From NCBI GenBank assembly GCA_900199595.1, contig FZRB01000014.1, positions 1 through 64,000 on the forward strand: a stretch of 64,000 bases of DNA, given 5' to 3'. Origin of the DNA: Lachnospiraceae bacterium. Lineage in GTDB: Bacteria > Bacillota > Clostridia > Lachnospirales > Lachnospiraceae. The translations under genes were made by a program, and so were the position numbers. The number at the start of each line of letters is the position of its first letter. Position 1 is the stretch's first letter. The notes beneath the pieces were generated by a model. That model ran no database searches and was not told the DNA's origin. It saw nothing but the letters and a program-made list of their open reading frames with translations. Below are positions 16,090 to 45,585 of the stretch, one piece after another.

Positions 16090-19000
16090 TCATAAACTGC
16101 TCTTAAGACTTATGTAGGTACCAAGAAGATCGTTTATTTCTACAAAATCCTTTTTTTCAATAGATTCGCCGAGAACATTCAGGAAGTCTATATCTTCAGC
16201 ACCGTACTCCTTCGTGCATATTTCCTTGTATAATTTTTTAATAAGGCTCATATCTTCAAGATAGGTCGCTTCTCTCATACTTCTTAAGGTATCTATATCG
16301 ATGATAACAGATGCTGTTTCGTTAATTGAATAATCATTATCATCAAATTCCTGAATATCTGATATATCTTCTGCCGCAAATGTTTCTTCAGCTGAAGTAT
16401 CTGCTGACTCTTCTTTATCAGTGATATTTCCTTTTTTAGCCATTTCAGCATATTCAACATCACTTATACCTTTAACGGTATTAACGAATTCAAGATATTC
16501 CTTTATATAATCTGTAATAACCGAAAGGCAATCCTTCATGAGATACAGATTGTCCTTTACATAGCTCTTATTACCTGTATTGACAGCAGACTCGATTCTA
16601 AGTGCGATTTCAGAAGCTTCAACAGCACCAATATTCTGACATCCTGTTCTGATATTATGAATTTTATTTCTAAATCCTCTGTAATCATTATTAAAACGGA
16701 AATCCAGATCATTAATGGCATCTTTATTCTGATTATAAAATGTACTCAGAATTCTGTTGTAGACATCAATGCTTCCGCCGATTTTTTCTAGTGTTGTAAC
16801 CACATCAAAGAAATCTTCAAGTTTCTTAAGGCCTTCGCTGTATCTTGAATCAGATATATACTGGGTTACATCATTTGATTTATATTTTATTTTTTCTTTA
16901 TCAGCAAATCTGACTACAAGTCCGGCAAACACAGTAATATCAAAAGGCTTAAGAACAACGTCTGAGAAGCCTTCATTTATAAGATCCTGGCGATTTTTAC
17001 CTATAGCATCCTCTGACATTGCTATTACAGGAAGAGTCCTGTATTTGTCGTCAGAAAGATCACGTATCTCTTTTAGTGCATCTATACCATTCATAACAGG
17101 CATTACGATATCCATGAATACCATATCATAATCATGATTCATTACCATATCAATTGCACTAAGTCCGCTTGCAGCTGTGTCTACTCTGATATCCAGTGCT
17201 GACATAACATCCATTGCTACATTTCTGCTTATATCAACGTCATCTACGAGAAGAATCCTAAGATCAGGAGCCCACATTCTCTCAGCTTCTTCACGGGATA
17301 CACGTTCAATGGTATTCTCATTCAATGGAATAACAGCTCCGCTTTCATCATACTTTTTCTGAAGAACCGAAACAGTGAAGGTAGAACCGGCACCATCTGT
17401 GCTTTCAACTTCTATATCTCCATTCTGAAGTTGGGCAAGCTTCTTGGCAATAGATAGACTGATACCATTTCCGGTACTCATAACTGTCTTTTTAGACTCA
17501 TCTACATAGTATAGTTCAAATATATGCTCTAGTCTTTCGGGACTTATTCCGGTACCGGTGTCAGATATACTGAATATCATATTTACACTGTTCTCAGGCA
17601 TGGCATCATCAGTAACACTGAACTCATAGCAGTCAACAGAAAGAGTTATTGAGCCTTCTTTTGTATATTTCAAAGCATTTTCGAGTATTATTCCAAGGGT
17701 GGTTTTTATCTTATCAAAGTCACCGATGAGTATATCCGGAATATTTTCACCCAGATCAACAACGAACTTAATTGGCATATCAGAAAGCTTATTAAGCATA
17801 TTATCTGATATATCACAGATAAGTGTGGTTATGGAATAAGGCTCATTAAGAAGTTCCTCTGCTCCCGATTCAAGTCTTGCCAGAAGGATTGTCTCATCAA
17901 CCTTATATAAAACGTCCTCACCCTTTTGTATTATGGTCTTAAGTTCATCTGCAGTATCTTTATCTACACTTCCATCCTTGATCATTGAATTAGCTTTACT
18001 GATCATCGCATTGATAGGAAGTTTGATCTCGTTGCTCATATTTGCCAGGTAGTCAGTTTTAGCAGTATTACTCTTAATTGCATCCTCGTGTTCCTTGGAA
18101 AGGTCCTCAAGCTCTTTATTTTTACCGAGGAATTTATTTCTTAAGTTAATTGTCGTTCCGACAGCAACCAGGACAATTAATATTATTAAAAATATAAATA
18201 AAGCACGAATTATCTTATTTTCAAAAAAACCATCCTTCTTGTTTATAGTAAAGGATAATGTATTATCGCTGGCTGTATTATCACCATTTGTGGCGCTGAC
18301 TATAAATATATAATTACCACCATCAAGGTTAGTATAAACAGCCTGAAGATTATCATTTCCGGAAAGTACCTGAGGCTCATTATCAAAACCTATAAGCTGA
18401 TAGGTTACTTTAATATTCTCTCTGTTTGAATAACTGAGCACACCAAAATCTATCTCAACTCTTTGTGTGTCTGAAGGAATGGAAATAGAATCACCGGCAT
18501 CACTGTAATGTATTATGGTTCCGTCTATGTCTACATCAGTAACGTTTATTTTAGGTGGAATGGTATTTATATAAATGTTCTTGGGATCCAGAGTCAGAAC
18601 ACCTTTTTCGGTACAAATGTAAATAAGACCGTTTTCGTCCATTATACAATGTGAATTAGCCGTTATAATGCTGTTGATACCGTCACCTGTTGACAGATAC
18701 CTTTCCTTAAGGGGAGCGGTTCCCAGAAGCTCATCCTCAGATGTGAAGAGAACACCCTTGGAGCCTATAATGTAAATATCATCATTATTATTTAATATAC
18801 TTGATATATTGTTGGAAAAATCAACATTACTGATTGCTCTGAAGGTACCGTTATAGAAGGAAAGACCATTATTTGTTCCAATCCATAAGCCCTTCTCAGT
18901 ATAAAGTAAAGATGCAACTACGTTTGATGTAAGTCCGTCTTTTTCGCTGTAGGTTGTGATTTTATCATTTTTTATGGTATATAATCCGCCACCATCAGAA

Positions 19001-20478
19001 CCTGCATATAAGGTATCATCATTATCCTGACAGAAACAAAGGATATTTGGATAATCAAGACCGGAATTATAATTATAATTTGAAGCTATATCTCCTTCAG
19101 GGGATATAATACTCATTCCTTCTTCGGTTCCTACAGCAACACTGTCATCGTTCATGATATATAAGCAATTTATAAGGTTACTGATAAGTCCCTTGGATTT
19201 GCTAAATGGAGTTATCTTGTTGTTCGGGCTGATTTTAATAACTCCATATCTTCTATAGGTGGCAATCCATATATTTCCCTTTGAATCTGCTTTAATATCT
19301 CTTATTGATATACCATTAAGATAATCAGTAACTTCATTAGAGATATTTGCGTTATTGGAATCGATAATTAATAATCCGTCGTCTGTTCCTATATATGTAT
19401 TATTTCTAAATTTATAAATACAGTTAGCAGCTTTATCTTCCAGTTTATATTTTTTATTAAAATACGAAAACTTGCTTTTTGACATATAAAGAATTCCGGA
19501 ACGCTTAGAGGCAAACCAGAAATTACCTTCATAATCAACAATCATCGATGTTATATAATTATTGATTTCAAGTCCGCTTATACCAATAAATGTATTATCA
19601 TTTTTAAAATATCCAATTCCGTTATCTGTACATACGTAAACATTACCATTTACACTGTATATATCATTTATTCCTGTAAATGATGAATGTAATATCTGGA
19701 ATGAATTCCATCCACTGAAGGAGATAATATCATTTCCGACAGTTCCTAAAAATATTCTGGAATTAGAATCACTTGATATTGAAGTAAGCTCTTCTGTGGT
19801 AAGATTTTCAGTTGTTGATTCTTTAATCTTACCGTTTTTATCCATGGAAAAAAGAGTATTTCCATTATAAATTCCCCATATATGAGAATTGGCAAATGTA
19901 ATACCCTGGATATTTTTCTTAGCAAGAGGCTCCACTCTTATAAGATTTTCACTCTGACCATCAAAATAATAAAGTCCATATGCTGTTGCAACATAAATAA
20001 TACCATCAGAAGACTGACAGATATCATTTATTGTTTTAATTCCGTTATAATAATCATCAGAAAAATGATTAACATTTGTTCCATTAATATTGAAAAGTCC
20101 ATAATTGTTTGTTCCGACCCATAAAGTACCGTTACTGTCCTGATATAATGAATTAATGTAGTATACATCCTCTTTATCGGTATCCCAGAGATTAAAGAGT
20201 TTGAATTCAGAACCATTATATCTGTATAGTCCGCTGTCGGTTCCAATCCATATATAGCCTGATTCAGTCTGATAAATACAGTTTATTTCAGAACTTCCGA
20301 GTCCGCTTTCCTGATCATATATTGTCTGCATATATTCATCACTGATACCCTCAGCATAAATTTTTAACGGATTAACGACAAAAAGGCATGTTAAAATACA
20401 TGCCATTGTCAGAACAAACATATTTATTAAATTATTAAGCCTCTTCGAGAAATGCTTCATAACCTTTTTCTGTTTCAT
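16090..20478 (-). CDS. Large hybrid sensor protein with propeller, HATPase, REC and HPt domains
   Basis: About 1462 residues. A signal/membrane segment is followed by a two-component-regulator beta-propeller built from many repeats of the form GLWIGTNNGL (about 45-640), then a Y_Y_Y-like domain (about 670-740) and a transmembrane helix (about 757-780). The dimerisation helix is YLANMSNEIKLPINAM, in which the phospho-accepting His is Asn (residue about 816, codon AAC at 18031-18033). The HATPase is intact (ENALKYT, DTGTGIS, GNGISLSIAKK). A receiver domain (Asp about 1123 in FMDIVMP, Lys in LKPFD) and an HPt domain (His about 1274 in KIHNIRTG) follow. The 20478 ATG has AAAGG nine bases upstream; 20460 is an alternative. 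It overlaps the aminopeptidase gene end. There is no DNA-binding domain. Confidence 0.85.
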   Translation of the reverse strand: MKQKKVMKHFSKRLNNLINMFVLTMACILTCLFVVNPLKIYAEGISDEYMQTIYDQESGLGSSEINCIYQTESGYIWIGTDSGLYRYNGSEFKLFNLWDTDKEDVYYINSLYQDSNGTLWVGTNNYGLFNINGTNVNHFSDDYYNGIKTINDICQSSDGIIYVATAYGLYYFDGQSENLIRVEPLAKKNIQGITFANSHIWGIYNGNTLFSMDKNGKIKESTTENLTTEELTSISSDSNSRIFLGTVGNDIISFSGWNSFQILHSSFTGINDIYSVNGNVYVCTDNGIGYFKNDNTFIGISGLEINNYITSMIVDYEGNFWFASKRSGILYMSKSKFSYFNKKYKLEDKAANCIYKFRNNTYIGTDDGLLIIDSNNANISNEVTDYLNGISIRDIKADSKGNIWIATYRRYGVIKISPNNKITPFSKSKGLISNLINCLYIMNDDSVAVGTEEGMSIISPEGDIASNYNYNSGLDYPNILCFCQDNDDTLYAGSDGGGLYTIKNDKITTYSEKDGLTSNVVASLLYTEKGLWIGTNNGLSFYNGTFRAISNVDFSNNISSILNNNDDIYIIGSKGVLFTSEDELLGTAPLKERYLSTGDGINSIITANSHCIMDENGLIYICTEKGVLTLDPKNIYINTIPPKINVTDVDIDGTIIHYSDAGDSISIPSDTQRVEIDFGVLSYSNRENIKVTYQLIGFDNEPQVLSGNDNLQAVYTNLDGGNYIFIVSATNGDNTASDNTLSFTINKKDGFFENKIIRALFIFLIILIVLVAVGTTINLRNKFLGKNKELEDLSKEHEDAIKSNTAKTDYLANMSNEIKLPINAMISKANSMIKDGSVDKDTADELKTIIQKGEDVLYKVDETILLARLESGAEELLNEPYSITTLICDISDNMLNKLSDMPIKFVVDLGENIPDILIGDFDKIKTTLGIILENALKYTKEGSITLSVDCYEFSVTDDAMPENSVNMIFSISDTGTGISPERLEHIFELYYVDESKKTVMSTGNGISLSIAKKLAQLQNGDIEVESTDGAGSTFTVSVLQKKYDESGAVIPLNENTIERVSREEAERMWAPDLRILLVDDVDISRNVAMDVMSALDIRVDTAASGLSAIDMVMNHDYDMVFMDIVMPVMNGIDALKEIRDLSDDKYRTLPVIAMSEDAIGKNRQDLINEGFSDVVLKPFDITVFAGLVVRFADKEKIKYKSNDVTQYISDSRYSEGLKKLEDFFDVVTTLEKIGGSIDVYNRILSTFYNQNKDAINDLDFRFNNDYRGFRNKIHNIRTGCQNIGAVEASEIALRIESAVNTGNKSYVKDNLYLMKDCLSVITDYIKEYLEFVNTVKGISDVEYAEMAKKGNITDKEESADTSAEETFAAEDISDIQEFDDNDYSINETASVIIDIDTLRSMREATYLEDMSLIKKLYKEICTKEYGAEDIDFLNVLGESIEKKDFVEINDLLGTYISLKSSL

Positions 20479-21847
20479 AAATATCAGCCTTTGAGGTAAC
20501 TTCCCATGGTGCATGCATATTCAGGACAGCAACACCACAATCAATTACTTCCATGCCGTATAATGAAAGTATGTATGCTATAGTACCACCACCGCCGATG
20601 TCAACCTTACCAAGCTCGGCAGTCTGATAATATACCTTATTCTTTTCAAGAATACCTCTTATTTTTCCTATATATTCAGCGTTTGCATCGTTAGAACCTG
20701 ATTTACCTCTGGCTCCGGTAAACTTATTGAATACCATTCCCCTTCCGAGAAATGCAGCATTTTTAGGTTCAAAACAGCTGGAATATAATGGGTCATAGCC
20801 AGCACTTACATCAGATGAAAGCATACAGGAATTTGATAAACATCTTCTGAGAGAAAGACTGCTGTTATAGCCAGCAAGTTCAAGTATCTCTGCTACAGTA
20901 TTTTCGAAAAACTTTGACTGCATTCCTGTAGCACCCACAGAGCCTATCTCTTCTTTATCAACCAATAGGGTACAGGATGTCTTTTCAGGATTCTTAACAT
21001 TTAACTGAGCTATTAGGGATGTATAAGCACATACTTTATCATCCTGGCCATAAGCAAGAATCATGGAACTGTCAATACCCATGTCACGCGGCTTGCCTGC
21101 AGGAACTATTTCAAGCTCAGCTGAAATAAAATCTTCTTCCTCAATATCATATTTTTTCTTAAGGATGCTGAGTACATTTTTAGTTACCATATTTTTCTTG
21201 TCTTCTTTTTGCTTGGAATCCTTATCATCCTTTTTTATCTTTAAAGGTCTGGAAGCTATAAGAAGATCAAGATCCTCTCCCTCGACAGCAACATTTGCCT
21301 TCTTACCCATCTGATTCTGAGCAAGATGAATAAGAATATCAGTAACACAAAATACAGGATCATTATCATCTTCACCGATAACTATTTCTACAAGAGATCC
21401 ATCAGTCTTTGCAACAACACCATGTATTGCAAGAGGCAGAGTTACCCATTGATATTTTTTTATTCCACCGTAATAATGTGTATCAAGATAAGCAAGATCA
21501 TTGTTTTCATAGAGCGGATTCTGCTTTACATCAAGTCTGGGAGAATCTAGATGAGCACCCAGAATATTCATGCCTTTTTCCAGATCTTTCTTACCGATAT
21601 TAAAAAGTGCGATGGTTTTACCCATGCATACGGCATAAACCTTATCACCGGCCTTAAGTTTCTTGTTCTTTTTAATTGCATCCTCAAGGGATATATATCC
21701 GGCTGCCTTAGCCTTTTCAATCACATACTTAGTTCCTTCTCTTTCGGTCTTACCCTTGAACAGATAATCCTTATAGCCTTCACAAAGCTTATTTATGTTT
21801 GCTTCATCATTCTTTGAGTATGATTTCCAAGCATTCTTACGTTCCAT
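20435..21847 (-). CDS. M18-family aminopeptidase
   Basis: 470 residues. A zinc metallopeptidase of the aspartyl aminopeptidase family (M18), cytoplasmic, releasing N-terminal residues from peptides. Characteristic blocks are ILGAHLDSPRLDVK (metal His/Asp), LLVDKEEIGSVGATG (catalytic Glu), SSDVSAGYDPLY and GGGGTIAYIL. Its C-terminal codons overlap the start of the large sensor gene. Only 33 bases separate its ATG from the end of a structured repeat element (21881-22405), so its promoter must lie inside that element or further upstream. Confidence 0.93.
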   Translation of the reverse strand: MERKNAWKSYSKNDEANINKLCEGYKDYLFKGKTEREGTKYVIEKAKAAGYISLEDAIKKNKKLKAGDKVYAVCMGKTIALFNIGKKDLEKGMNILGAHLDSPRLDVKQNPLYENNDLAYLDTHYYGGIKKYQWVTLPLAIHGVVAKTDGSLVEIVIGEDDNDPVFCVTDILIHLAQNQMGKKANVAVEGEDLDLLIASRPLKIKKDDKDSKQKEDKKNMVTKNVLSILKKKYDIEEEDFISAELEIVPAGKPRDMGIDSSMILAYGQDDKVCAYTSLIAQLNVKNPEKTSCTLLVDKEEIGSVGATGMQSKFFENTVAEILELAGYNSSLSLRRCLSNSCMLSSDVSAGYDPLYSSCFEPKNAAFLGRGMVFNKFTGARGKSGSNDANAEYIGKIRGILEKNKVYYQTAELGKVDIGGGGTIAYILSLYGMEVIDCGVAVLNMHAPWEVTSKADIYETEKGYEAFLEEA

Positions 21848-22081
21848 GTTATCTTCCTTCTTTTCTTATTAATGTTTTCGCCGCGACAAGTAAGTATATG
21901 CTTATGCGAAAGTATACATGTTCGACATCGCTCTCGCTCATGGCGGGTTTCCCGAACGGACCACTTCGCTTACGCTTCGTTTGCTAAGCTCTCACTTCGC
22001 CTAAAGGCTTGTGAATCGCTAAGCACCGCGACCCTTATGGTCTCACATGCATACTTCGCACATCGCATTTATAACTTACTT

Positions 22082-22109
22082 GTTCGCGATTATACGTTAT
22101 ATCGCGAAC
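22082..22109 (+). other. Central hairpin of repeat copy A
   Basis: GTTCGCGAT (22082-22090) pairs with ATCGCGAAC (22101-22109) around a ten-base loop; three further pairs extend it outward (C-G, T-A and a T-G wobble). The same stem in copy B (40234-40267) has C-G where this copy has T-A at one position, a compensatory change. Confidence 0.8.
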
Positions 22110-22242
22110 GAGCTTACGTAGCTGGGCACGAGTGTATGCCTGAGGGACCATAAGCGGTCTGTTCACTTAGCGATTCAGACATCTGCTTTTTAGATGGCTG
22201 AGAGCTTAGTGAGCCTAGGGCACCGCGCCTGTGCGCAATTAG

Positions 22243-22344
22243 CTCCCGATTCAAGGAATCGGGGGTCTGTCCGAAGGACAGAAGCGTTCTGCATAGCAGA
22301 ACCAAGACTTGCTCTGCAAGTCTAGCATATCGCAAAGCGATATG
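22243..22344 (+). repeat. Array of five perfect hairpins with 3-base loops
   Basis: Five consecutive hairpins, none related in stem sequence: 22245-22263 (CCCGATTC, loop AAG), 22266-22282 (TCTGTCC, loop GAA), 22286-22302 (GTTCTGC, loop ATA), 22306-22322 (GACTTGC, loop TCT) and 22326-22344 (CATATCGC, loop AAA). Every stem is 7-8 perfect pairs and linkers are 2-3 bases, giving a period of about 20 bases. Absent from copy B at the corresponding place. Confidence 0.88.
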
Positions 22345-22413
22345 GCTCAAGCAGTGTCCTCTCAGGCATATCATCTCGTGACAGCGAAGTTACAGCTCGA
22401 CGCGGAAATATCT

Positions 22414-39980: not shown

Positions 39981-40042
39981 CACATTCAAACCTCTTACAA
40001 AATATATAAATCTATGATAGTATATTTTCTTGTACATGATTT

Positions 40043-40463
40043 CCGCGGCAAGCTATAACTCGCAGTCACGAGATGATATACCTGAGAGACTCTACTCTCG
40101 TACGGTTCGGGTACCCCTAGCGGTCGCTTCGCTCGCTAAGCTCTCAGCCATCTGGAAAAACAGATGTCTGAATCGCTAAGCGCCGAGACCCGAAACGGTC
40201 TCTCAGGCATACACTCGTGTCCTGCTCAGTTAGCTTGCTCGCAAATATACGTTAAGTCGCGAGCAAGTAAATGATAAAGCGATGTGCGAAGTATGTATGT
40301 GAGACCATAAGGGTCGCGGTGCTTAGCGATTCACAAGCCTTTAGGCGTAGTGAGAGCTTAGCAAACGAAGCGTAAGCGAAGTGGTCCGTTCGGGAAACCC
40401 GCCATGAGCGAGAGCGATGTCGAACATACATACTGTCGCACAAGCTAAATTTACTTGCCGCGG
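40043..40463 (-). repeat. Structured non-coding repeat element, copy B (421 bp)
   Basis: It lies in the 614-base gap between divergent mrp and CYTH genes. Perfect 10-base terminal inverted repeats: CCGCGGCAAG (40043-40052) and CTTGCCGCGG (40454-40463). It is oriented opposite to copy A (21881-22405); 40279-40427 matches it at 147 of 149 positions. Two inverted related arms each carry GCTAAGCTCTCA, a hairpin, TGAATCGCTAAGC and a GGTCTC hairpin, around a central hairpin at 40234-40267. The array of five hairpins in copy A is absent. No target-site duplication is evident at the ends. The remaining gap (39885-40042) holds only the mrp promoter region. Confidence 0.87.
40234..40267 (-). other. Central hairpin of repeat copy B
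   Basis: CTTGCTCGC (40234-40242) pairs perfectly with GCGAGCAAG (40259-40267) around a 16-base loop. Compared with copy A, one T-A pair is replaced by C-G and a T-G wobble by T-A, so pairing is kept while the sequence changes. Confidence 0.8.
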
Positions 40464-40504
40464 ATGTAGTCTAGAAAAGTATACTAATCAGGACGGTAAT
40501 GAAT

Positions 40505-45446: not shown

Positions 45447-45460
45447 CACATACGCTTTCC

Positions 45461-45572
45461 AATCAATCCCATCCAGACTTTACTGTCGGCTTCTGAATCA
45501 AACAGAATCAACTGCTTAAGCAGCTCGCGGGCTATACCGCCGGTCGGGAATTTCACCCTGCCCCAAGATTAT
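45461..45572 (-). ncRNA. FMN riboswitch (RFN element)
   Basis: On the minus strand the conserved GGGGCAGGGTGAAATTCCCG, ACCGGCGGTATAGCCCGCGA, GCCGACAGTAAAGTCTGGA and ATGGGA blocks appear in order, the full RFN aptamer. P1 is weak (AATC/GATT). A possible promoter is TTGGAA (45597-45602), 16-base spacer, TACATT (45575-45580), placing the start at the base of P1. It controls the ribD-ribE-ribBA-ribH operon. The promoter lies inside the last codons of the Sel1-repeat gene or directly after its stop. Confidence 0.96.
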
Positions 45573-45585
45573 ATAATGTATTTAA

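Follow-up and report, generated by a model that had tools for sequence, protein, structure and literature searches.

Small palindromic repeats are common in bacterial genomes, and most of them are short or simple. Of the described systems, the BOX elements come closest in style to the repeats reported here. In PMC3049150 they appear as modular, intergenic and tightly folded elements with paired terminal parts, and 60.8% of those in Streptococcus pneumoniae lie on the leading strand. The Correia/NEMIS, ERIC and RUP elements are MITEs with TA at their ends and target-site duplications, according to PMC2229807. REPs measure 20-50 nt and are most often accompanied by a GTAG foot (PMC8266576), while invertons flip between inverted repeats (PMC11892184).

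We analysed a window of 64,000 nt (the whole stretch of DNA under study) that carries two palindromic elements, copy A and copy B, with likenesses to all four systems. They share with BOX the variable inner hairpin modules, the narrow host range and the nesting with other repeats (PMC3049150). They are set apart from the description of BOX given there by a covarying unit of about 120 nt, by head-to-head pairs, a five-hairpin array and copy-specific outer stems, by opposite orientations at the same site, and by the lack of a bias towards the main gene strand, against the leading-strand preference of BOX. Like Correia/NEMIS, ERIC and RUP, the family has stem-loop units of about 100-200 bp, terminal inverted repeats and an intergenic location; those elements, as presented in PMC2229807, are simple long stem-loops, whereas the unit here is branched and TA ends or duplications are not established for it. 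The imperfect palindromes, conserved mismatches, single or inverted paired arrangement and distinguishable strands recall REP/BIME elements, but the units are at least about 120 nt long, GTAG was found in 0 of 63 cases and they do not lie near RAYT-like genes (compared with PMC8266576). As in invertons, a segment between inverted repeats occurs in both orientations, here between species; unlike the invertons of PMC11892184, that segment is a palindromic repeat in its own right and is dispersed. On this comparison, none of BOX, MITEs, REPs and invertons appears to combine a branched covarying unit, copy-specific paired arms and opposite orientations.

Two elements and their shared folding unit

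A sequence-only reading of the window had placed two non-coding elements in opposite orientation, copy A and, at 40043-40463, copy B. Both were recovered as placed (Table 1), and when bases 21918-22066 are compared with 40279-40427 read on the other strand, 147 of the 149 positions agree. The 10-base inverted ends are perfect in copy B (CCGCGGCAAG at either side) and degenerate in copy A (CCGCGACAAG and CCGCGTCGAG). In copy B the inverted ends extend further out, to GTATAT/GTATAC, and the wider bounds of Table 1 are therefore better. Also as described from the sequence, the copies exceed the window in GC content (0.507 and 0.515 vs 0.361) and in observed/expected CpG (1.25 and 1.40 vs 0.65), and every one of the 12 CpG-richest 500-bp windows listed overlaps one of them. 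GCTAAGCTCTCA, with at most one mismatch allowed, occurs four times in the window against 0.35 expected, always inside copy A or B. No credible protein is encoded, the two longest ORFs within copy A (93 and 86 aa) lying below any Pfam cut-off, and the folding energy is far under that of 100 shuffles (z of -10.2 for copy A and -10.8 for copy B). Pfam identifies the neighbours of copy A as an M18 aminopeptidase and a class-III aminotransferase, and those of copy B as a P-loop NTPase and a CYTH protein. Elsewhere in the window, a 1474-aa ORF at 16090-20514 appears by eye to resemble a two-component sensor of the hybrid type whose sensor part is rich in repeats.

Table 1 Coordinates of copy A, copy B and their parts within the window
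Feature	Position	Strand	Basis or remark
Copy A, whole element, CCGCG...CGCGG feet	21881..22405	.	Opposite orientation vs G070 orthologue
Copy A unit 1, conserved fold	21913..22054	-	Covariance model R1, 52.6 bits, E 2.0e-8
Copy A unit 2, conserved fold	22136..22257	+	R1, 62.9 bits, E 7.0e-11
Five short hairpins, array in the small (P3) hairpin loop of copy A unit 2	22242..22346	.	Fold, by eye
Copy B with its outer terminal inverted repeats GTATAT/C...CCGCGGCAAG	40020..40484	.	
Copy B left terminal inverted repeat	40020..40052	+	
Copy B right terminal inverted repeat	40454..40484	-	
Copy B unit 1, conserved fold	40077..40212	-	R1, 82.2 bits, E 1.8e-15
Copy B unit 2, conserved fold	40291..40432	+	R1, 53 bits, E 1.5e-8

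Each element had been read as an internal inverted duplication. The duplication is present, and is better described as one conserved unit that occurs twice, head to head, in the order minus strand then plus strand, with the five-hairpin array as an insertion in copy A. This array interrupts unit 2 of copy A, the outer 3' arm of which runs to about 22375 by eye on the predicted fold.

Three parts make up the unit of about 120 nt: an outer stem, a long stem-loop that is conserved, and a small hairpin whose loop is mostly of the GNRA type. Its consensus, built from 66 and then 39 cores, has the long stem-loop with CTTAGCGATTCA...TGAGAGCTTAG, a conserved CTAGGGG stretch and the small hairpin. An exact DNA pattern served to select the core sets, and with them alignments A1 and A2, so that CTTAGCGATTCA and GAGAGCTTAG are invariant there by selection and the other parts are free. 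Of the 118 pattern matches listed, 48 were set aside (inserts, stretch ends or no clear small hairpin) and 70 kept; A1 holds 66 of these 70, and A2 the 39 of the 66 that were left after truncated, odd and near-duplicate rows had been dropped.

Placed on a plain MAFFT alignment, the named structure (43 pairs) had 84.2% of cells paired, vs 32.5-45.2% when slid by 1-3 columns, and 297 double-change cells vs 62-103. The corresponding values for A3, an alignment of 42 model-found units from four genomes, were 90.5% vs 29.1-46.7% and 344 vs 31-83, although A3 was fitted to the covariance model and shares units with A2, and hence is not independent. The exact first motif is kept in 20 of the 42 A3 units, and the small-hairpin loop reads as GNRA in 29 of 42 by a rough regular-expression reading. 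RNAalifold, run unaided on the 66 rows, returned the central stem only, with 14 pairs, 5 of them with double changes. The alignments show strong base-pair covariation within the unit.

Nothing in copies A and B reached a gathering score in a search of the window against Rfam 15. Three chance-level matches lie around copy B, one of them inside it (sRNA154, E 0.91, 17.3 bits vs 88). A match to a known Rfam family or to a described IS-derived MITE, either of which had been named beforehand as removing novelty, was therefore found neither in Rfam nor in the literature searched, where no description of the repeat family turned up; the latter result is not proof of absence. The window also holds an FMN riboswitch at 45457-45574 on the minus strand (104.1 bits).

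Distribution, ends and comparison of sites across species

A DNA search of the own genome (G000) gave 51 matches with copy A and 34 with copy B, which are pieces rather than elements. Covariance model R1 located 21 units in the own genome and matched 26 of 36 same-genus relatives, and none of the 24 genomes tested from other genera of the order had a hit. The exact inner stem-loop pattern was found in at least 113 stretches of a species-level genome collection, and the titles among the matches listed were mostly of Lachnospiraceae and Eubacterium assemblies, many of them rumen-derived. Distant blastn searches of plasmid and phage collections with copy A gave no match. Copies A and B are apparently members of an undescribed short non-coding repeat family of one gut-bacterial genus.

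Units were found singly or as head-to-head pairs, and the divergent head-to-head layout of copies A and B recurs in own elements C7, C12 and C18 (5 of 5 pairs). When own copies are aligned at their ends, the inverted repeat is seen to extend outward past CCGCGGCAAG, across some 15-20 AT-rich bases, as far as GTATAC; copy A retains this outer repeat only in degenerate form. Terminal inverted repeats GTATAC...CCGCGGCAAG bound elements in at least the own genome, G070 and G071, and paired GTATAC-type ends 325, 477 and 503 bp apart occur at three places in G070 and G071. GTATAC ends are absent from many units of other species, and one mode of movement may therefore not fit all. By eye, the copies with terminal inverted repeats show no clean target-site duplication beyond the palindromic GTATAC on both sides, the empty-site relatives being too diverged. 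The features of MITEs seen here are short length, lack of coding capacity and many copies, together with terminal inverted repeats in the own genome, G070 and G071.

A five-hairpin array similar to that of copy A is present in other repeats of the own genome (L018, L019, L025-L029) and in units of other species, and the genus carries a set of nested palindromic repeats. As separate observations, own repeats L026-L029 share the ends ATGACATAAGTGTCAAAAGTC and GGTGTCAAAAGGTAC, and several own copies have another MITE-like repeat, with ends ACATGATTTGTGATTA, inside or next to them (L036, L037, L039, L040, L042, L043).

The exact-end search, the Y1-transposase loci and the PF06782 loci tied no transposase or recombinase to the family. 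No longer element with exact GTATAC...CCGCGG ends, which could be an autonomous partner, was found in the own genome and 60 other genomes of the genus, a search that diverged ends would escape. One genome, G002, had 12 R1 hits, of which 11 were fetched, and 10 of these fall within insertion sequences some 1765 bp long that encode a PF06782 transposase, the unit being located between the end of the insertion sequence and its transposase gene. These insertion sequences (L222-L231; PF06782/UPF0236), which we take to be of the ISLre2 type, comprise one subfamily of six near-identical copies (five matching the sixth at 99.9% identity or more) and another of three identical copies; 9-bp target duplications can be seen by eye at nine of the ten insertion sequences. 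An origin of the family from this insertion sequence, as an ISLre2-derived MITE, was rejected: its ends are GACTCTGTCAAGC or GTCACTGTCAAGT while own elements end in GTATAC, the own genome has no PF06782 protein, and the unit is missing from all 7 PF06782 loci examined elsewhere in the genus. The unit in the G002 insertion sequence is most likely a passenger.

Empty sites, which the earlier reading had suggested seeking in related strains, do exist: neither G021 nor G071 has an element at the copy A site or at the copy B site (by eye, with no R1 hit). Comparison of flanking proteins revealed several sites common to species, mostly with the same unit direction, indicating that units can also be long inherited. 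At three pairs of loci the unit is turned round (L090/L118, L097/L157 and L148/L180, the latter two with one flank matched).

The junction between the B and D genes of the V/A-type ATPase gave a match in 43 of 61 genomes, and the best 30 of the 43 were resolved. Among these 30 species, eight carry the unit, in sense orientation in G005, G008, G012, G034 and G069 and in antisense orientation in G000, G016 and G071. Remnants seen by eye are a stem base in G033, a core-less hairpin in G067 and only CCGCGG in G030; 13 junctions measure just 14-53 bp, and another six, of 72-244 bp, contain other sequence that in part forms hairpins. Other hairpin-forming sequences without a model match were noted at this junction in other species of the genus (L339, L352, L355, L356). 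On a B-gene tree the eight carriers need six changes, all six forced by well-supported branches, vs a mean of 7.2 with shuffled carrier labels (93 of 500 shuffles as low as observed). These changes indicate that the ATPase junction repeatedly gained or lost the unit.

The sister of G000 on this tree is G070 (support 88/89), a draft assembly that is 78% complete in about 260 contigs. In 3 of 3 comparable elements, the G070 orthologue has the opposite orientation. The orthologue of copy A aligns inverted (443) rather than direct (79) with host flanks in place; own C14 aligns with G070 C235 at 286 inverted vs 108 direct, and own C12 with G070 C95 at 643 inverted vs 54 direct, the flanks in both cases being unchanged up to GTATAC. 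Six further G070 stretches had no clear orthologous flank when compared with 17 own loci. In the nine elements examined, exact inverted repeats whose arms lie more than 60 bp apart reach at most 12-14 bp, which is short for RecA recombination. As repeats of this length are also below usual assembly k-mers, an assembly error is an unlikely cause of the flip. The closest own copy of C95 is its orthologue C12 (94%, inverted). Against flipping, opposite orientation could arise by independent insertion at the same site; C14 is not the closest own copy of its orthologue C235, and a separate insertion at the same place is therefore possible there.

Outer stems and gene context

The arm, mismatch, context and flank counts rest on the pattern-selected core sets, among the matches listed. 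In 104 units, the own left and right arms pair with a median local score of 34 (lowest 13), vs a median of 17 for arms across different copies (95th percentile 24, highest 71). Left arms of different copies are seldom alike, only 0.6% of pairs scoring above 40. The sequence of the outer stem thus varies between copies yet remains self-complementary. Single mismatches in the outer stems are more often G.T than A.C (94 vs 54) and G.A than C.T (73 vs 29), and tandem mismatches are GA/GA in 20 cases vs TC/TC in 0, a bias that favours folding of the strand shown. In the 32 units antisense to both neighbours, the bias is lost or weak (G.A vs C.T 12:13; G.T vs A.C 25:17), so part of it may follow transcription.

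Among the matches listed, 113 of 118 cores lie outside ORFs of at least 90 aa. The flanking gene directions of the 118 cores are << in 33, >> in 32, >< in 12 and <> in 11, with 25 incomplete and 5 within an ORF. Core strand and main gene strand coincide at 54 loci and differ at 60, showing no bias. Promoter-like sites upstream vs downstream of 97 cores numbered 1 vs 1 (strong) and 24 vs 20 (weaker), with no clear excess. The apparently random orientation to genes, together with the lack of a clear promoter excess, argues against the unit being either a dedicated RNA gene or an mRNA element bound to one strand.

Competing explanations

The sequence-only reading had proposed either a MITE-like repeat moved in trans or a large folded RNA. 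The first proposal is supported by the many copies, the terminal inverted repeats, the mostly intergenic location, the occupied and empty sites and the inverted alleles, while movement in trans is what we infer, because no enzyme was found. Of the second, the folded strand is supported by the strong covariation, but the RNA gene is opposed by an apparently random orientation to genes and by the lack of any own promoter that stands out. The family probably consists of genus-wide non-autonomous palindromic interspersed repeats, MITE/BOX-like, that are moved and flipped by a putative trans-acting enzyme. Such an enzyme would recognise the ends and/or the folded strand and would move and flip the element; the fold may be kept because only folding copies get processed. 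Effects on neighbouring mRNAs, such as a hairpin within an operon, would be side effects, perhaps selected at some sites. A bolder proposal, which we regard as rather doubtful, is that the family represents a new class of mobile DNA: the enzyme would recognise the conserved folded strand and not conserved ends, and copies would each remake their long palindromic arms, flip in place at the ends and be exchanged at fixed gene junctions.

If the unit were instead transcribed and acted as a small RNA or mRNA element, the copies being RNA genes or cis-regulators, then the strong covariation, the mostly GNRA-looped hairpin, the conserved internal loops, the presence of units at the same gene junctions in several species and the excess of G.T over A.C, of G.A over C.T and of tandem GA, expected if the strand shown folds, would all fit. 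This account is unlikely, and weaker than the MITE/BOX-like one, given the near-equal agreement and disagreement with gene strand, the spread of flanking gene directions, the lack of a clear upstream promoter-like excess, the disappearance of the G.A bias in units antisense to both neighbours and the same-site elements in opposite orientation. That last observation would suit a site-specific invertible segment switching the expression of its neighbours, with the CCGCG/GTATAC ends as recombination sites: all three comparable orthologues are turned round between two closely related species while the host flanks keep their place, the longest exact inverted repeats in the elements reach just 12-14 bp, and the GTATAC ends hold an outward TATAC(T/A) that is -10-like by eye. 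Units are, however, present at many sites, missing from orthologous sites and found hitch-hiking in an insertion sequence, and are thus dispersed and not just inverted, and the neighbours of copies A and B are enzymes rather than surface genes; we consider an inverton quite improbable.

Replication template switching could keep the palindromes self-complementary, leaving the outer stem functionless and only the inner unit selected. Consistent with this, arms differ among copies and, by eye, orthologous outer arms change in concert (L104/L183; G012, G034, G069). The G.T over A.C bias and the tandem GA motif nevertheless suggest selection of the folded strand, and spread and flips are left unexplained, making template switching a distinctly unlikely full account. 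An inverted target duplication was also considered as the origin of the outer arms. Least credible, and in our view highly improbable, are REP/BIME elements moved by a RAYT (TnpA_REP) single-strand transposase. The units are palindromic, intergenic, single or in inverted pairs and have a one-strand mismatch bias, and the genus has Y1-transposase frames of 193-284 aa that are RAYT-like by length and score; but no unit lies near any of the 16 loci around such frames, and the own genome, with its 21 units, has no Y1 frame above 169 aa, and Y1 matches are absent from G016 (20 units) and G033 (11 units). In addition, none of 63 CGCGAG...CCGCGG stretches (overlapping loci recounted) has GTAG ahead of its foot, and a bias to the main gene strand is lacking. 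Mobile MITE/BOX-like repeats remain our preferred explanation.

We know of no other case in which a covarying fold, copy-specific paired outer stems and inverted same-site alleles are combined. With its many species, empty sites and inverted alleles, the family offers a natural system for finding the enzyme and for testing selection on folded DNA vs RNA, and it is a candidate family for RNA and repeat libraries.
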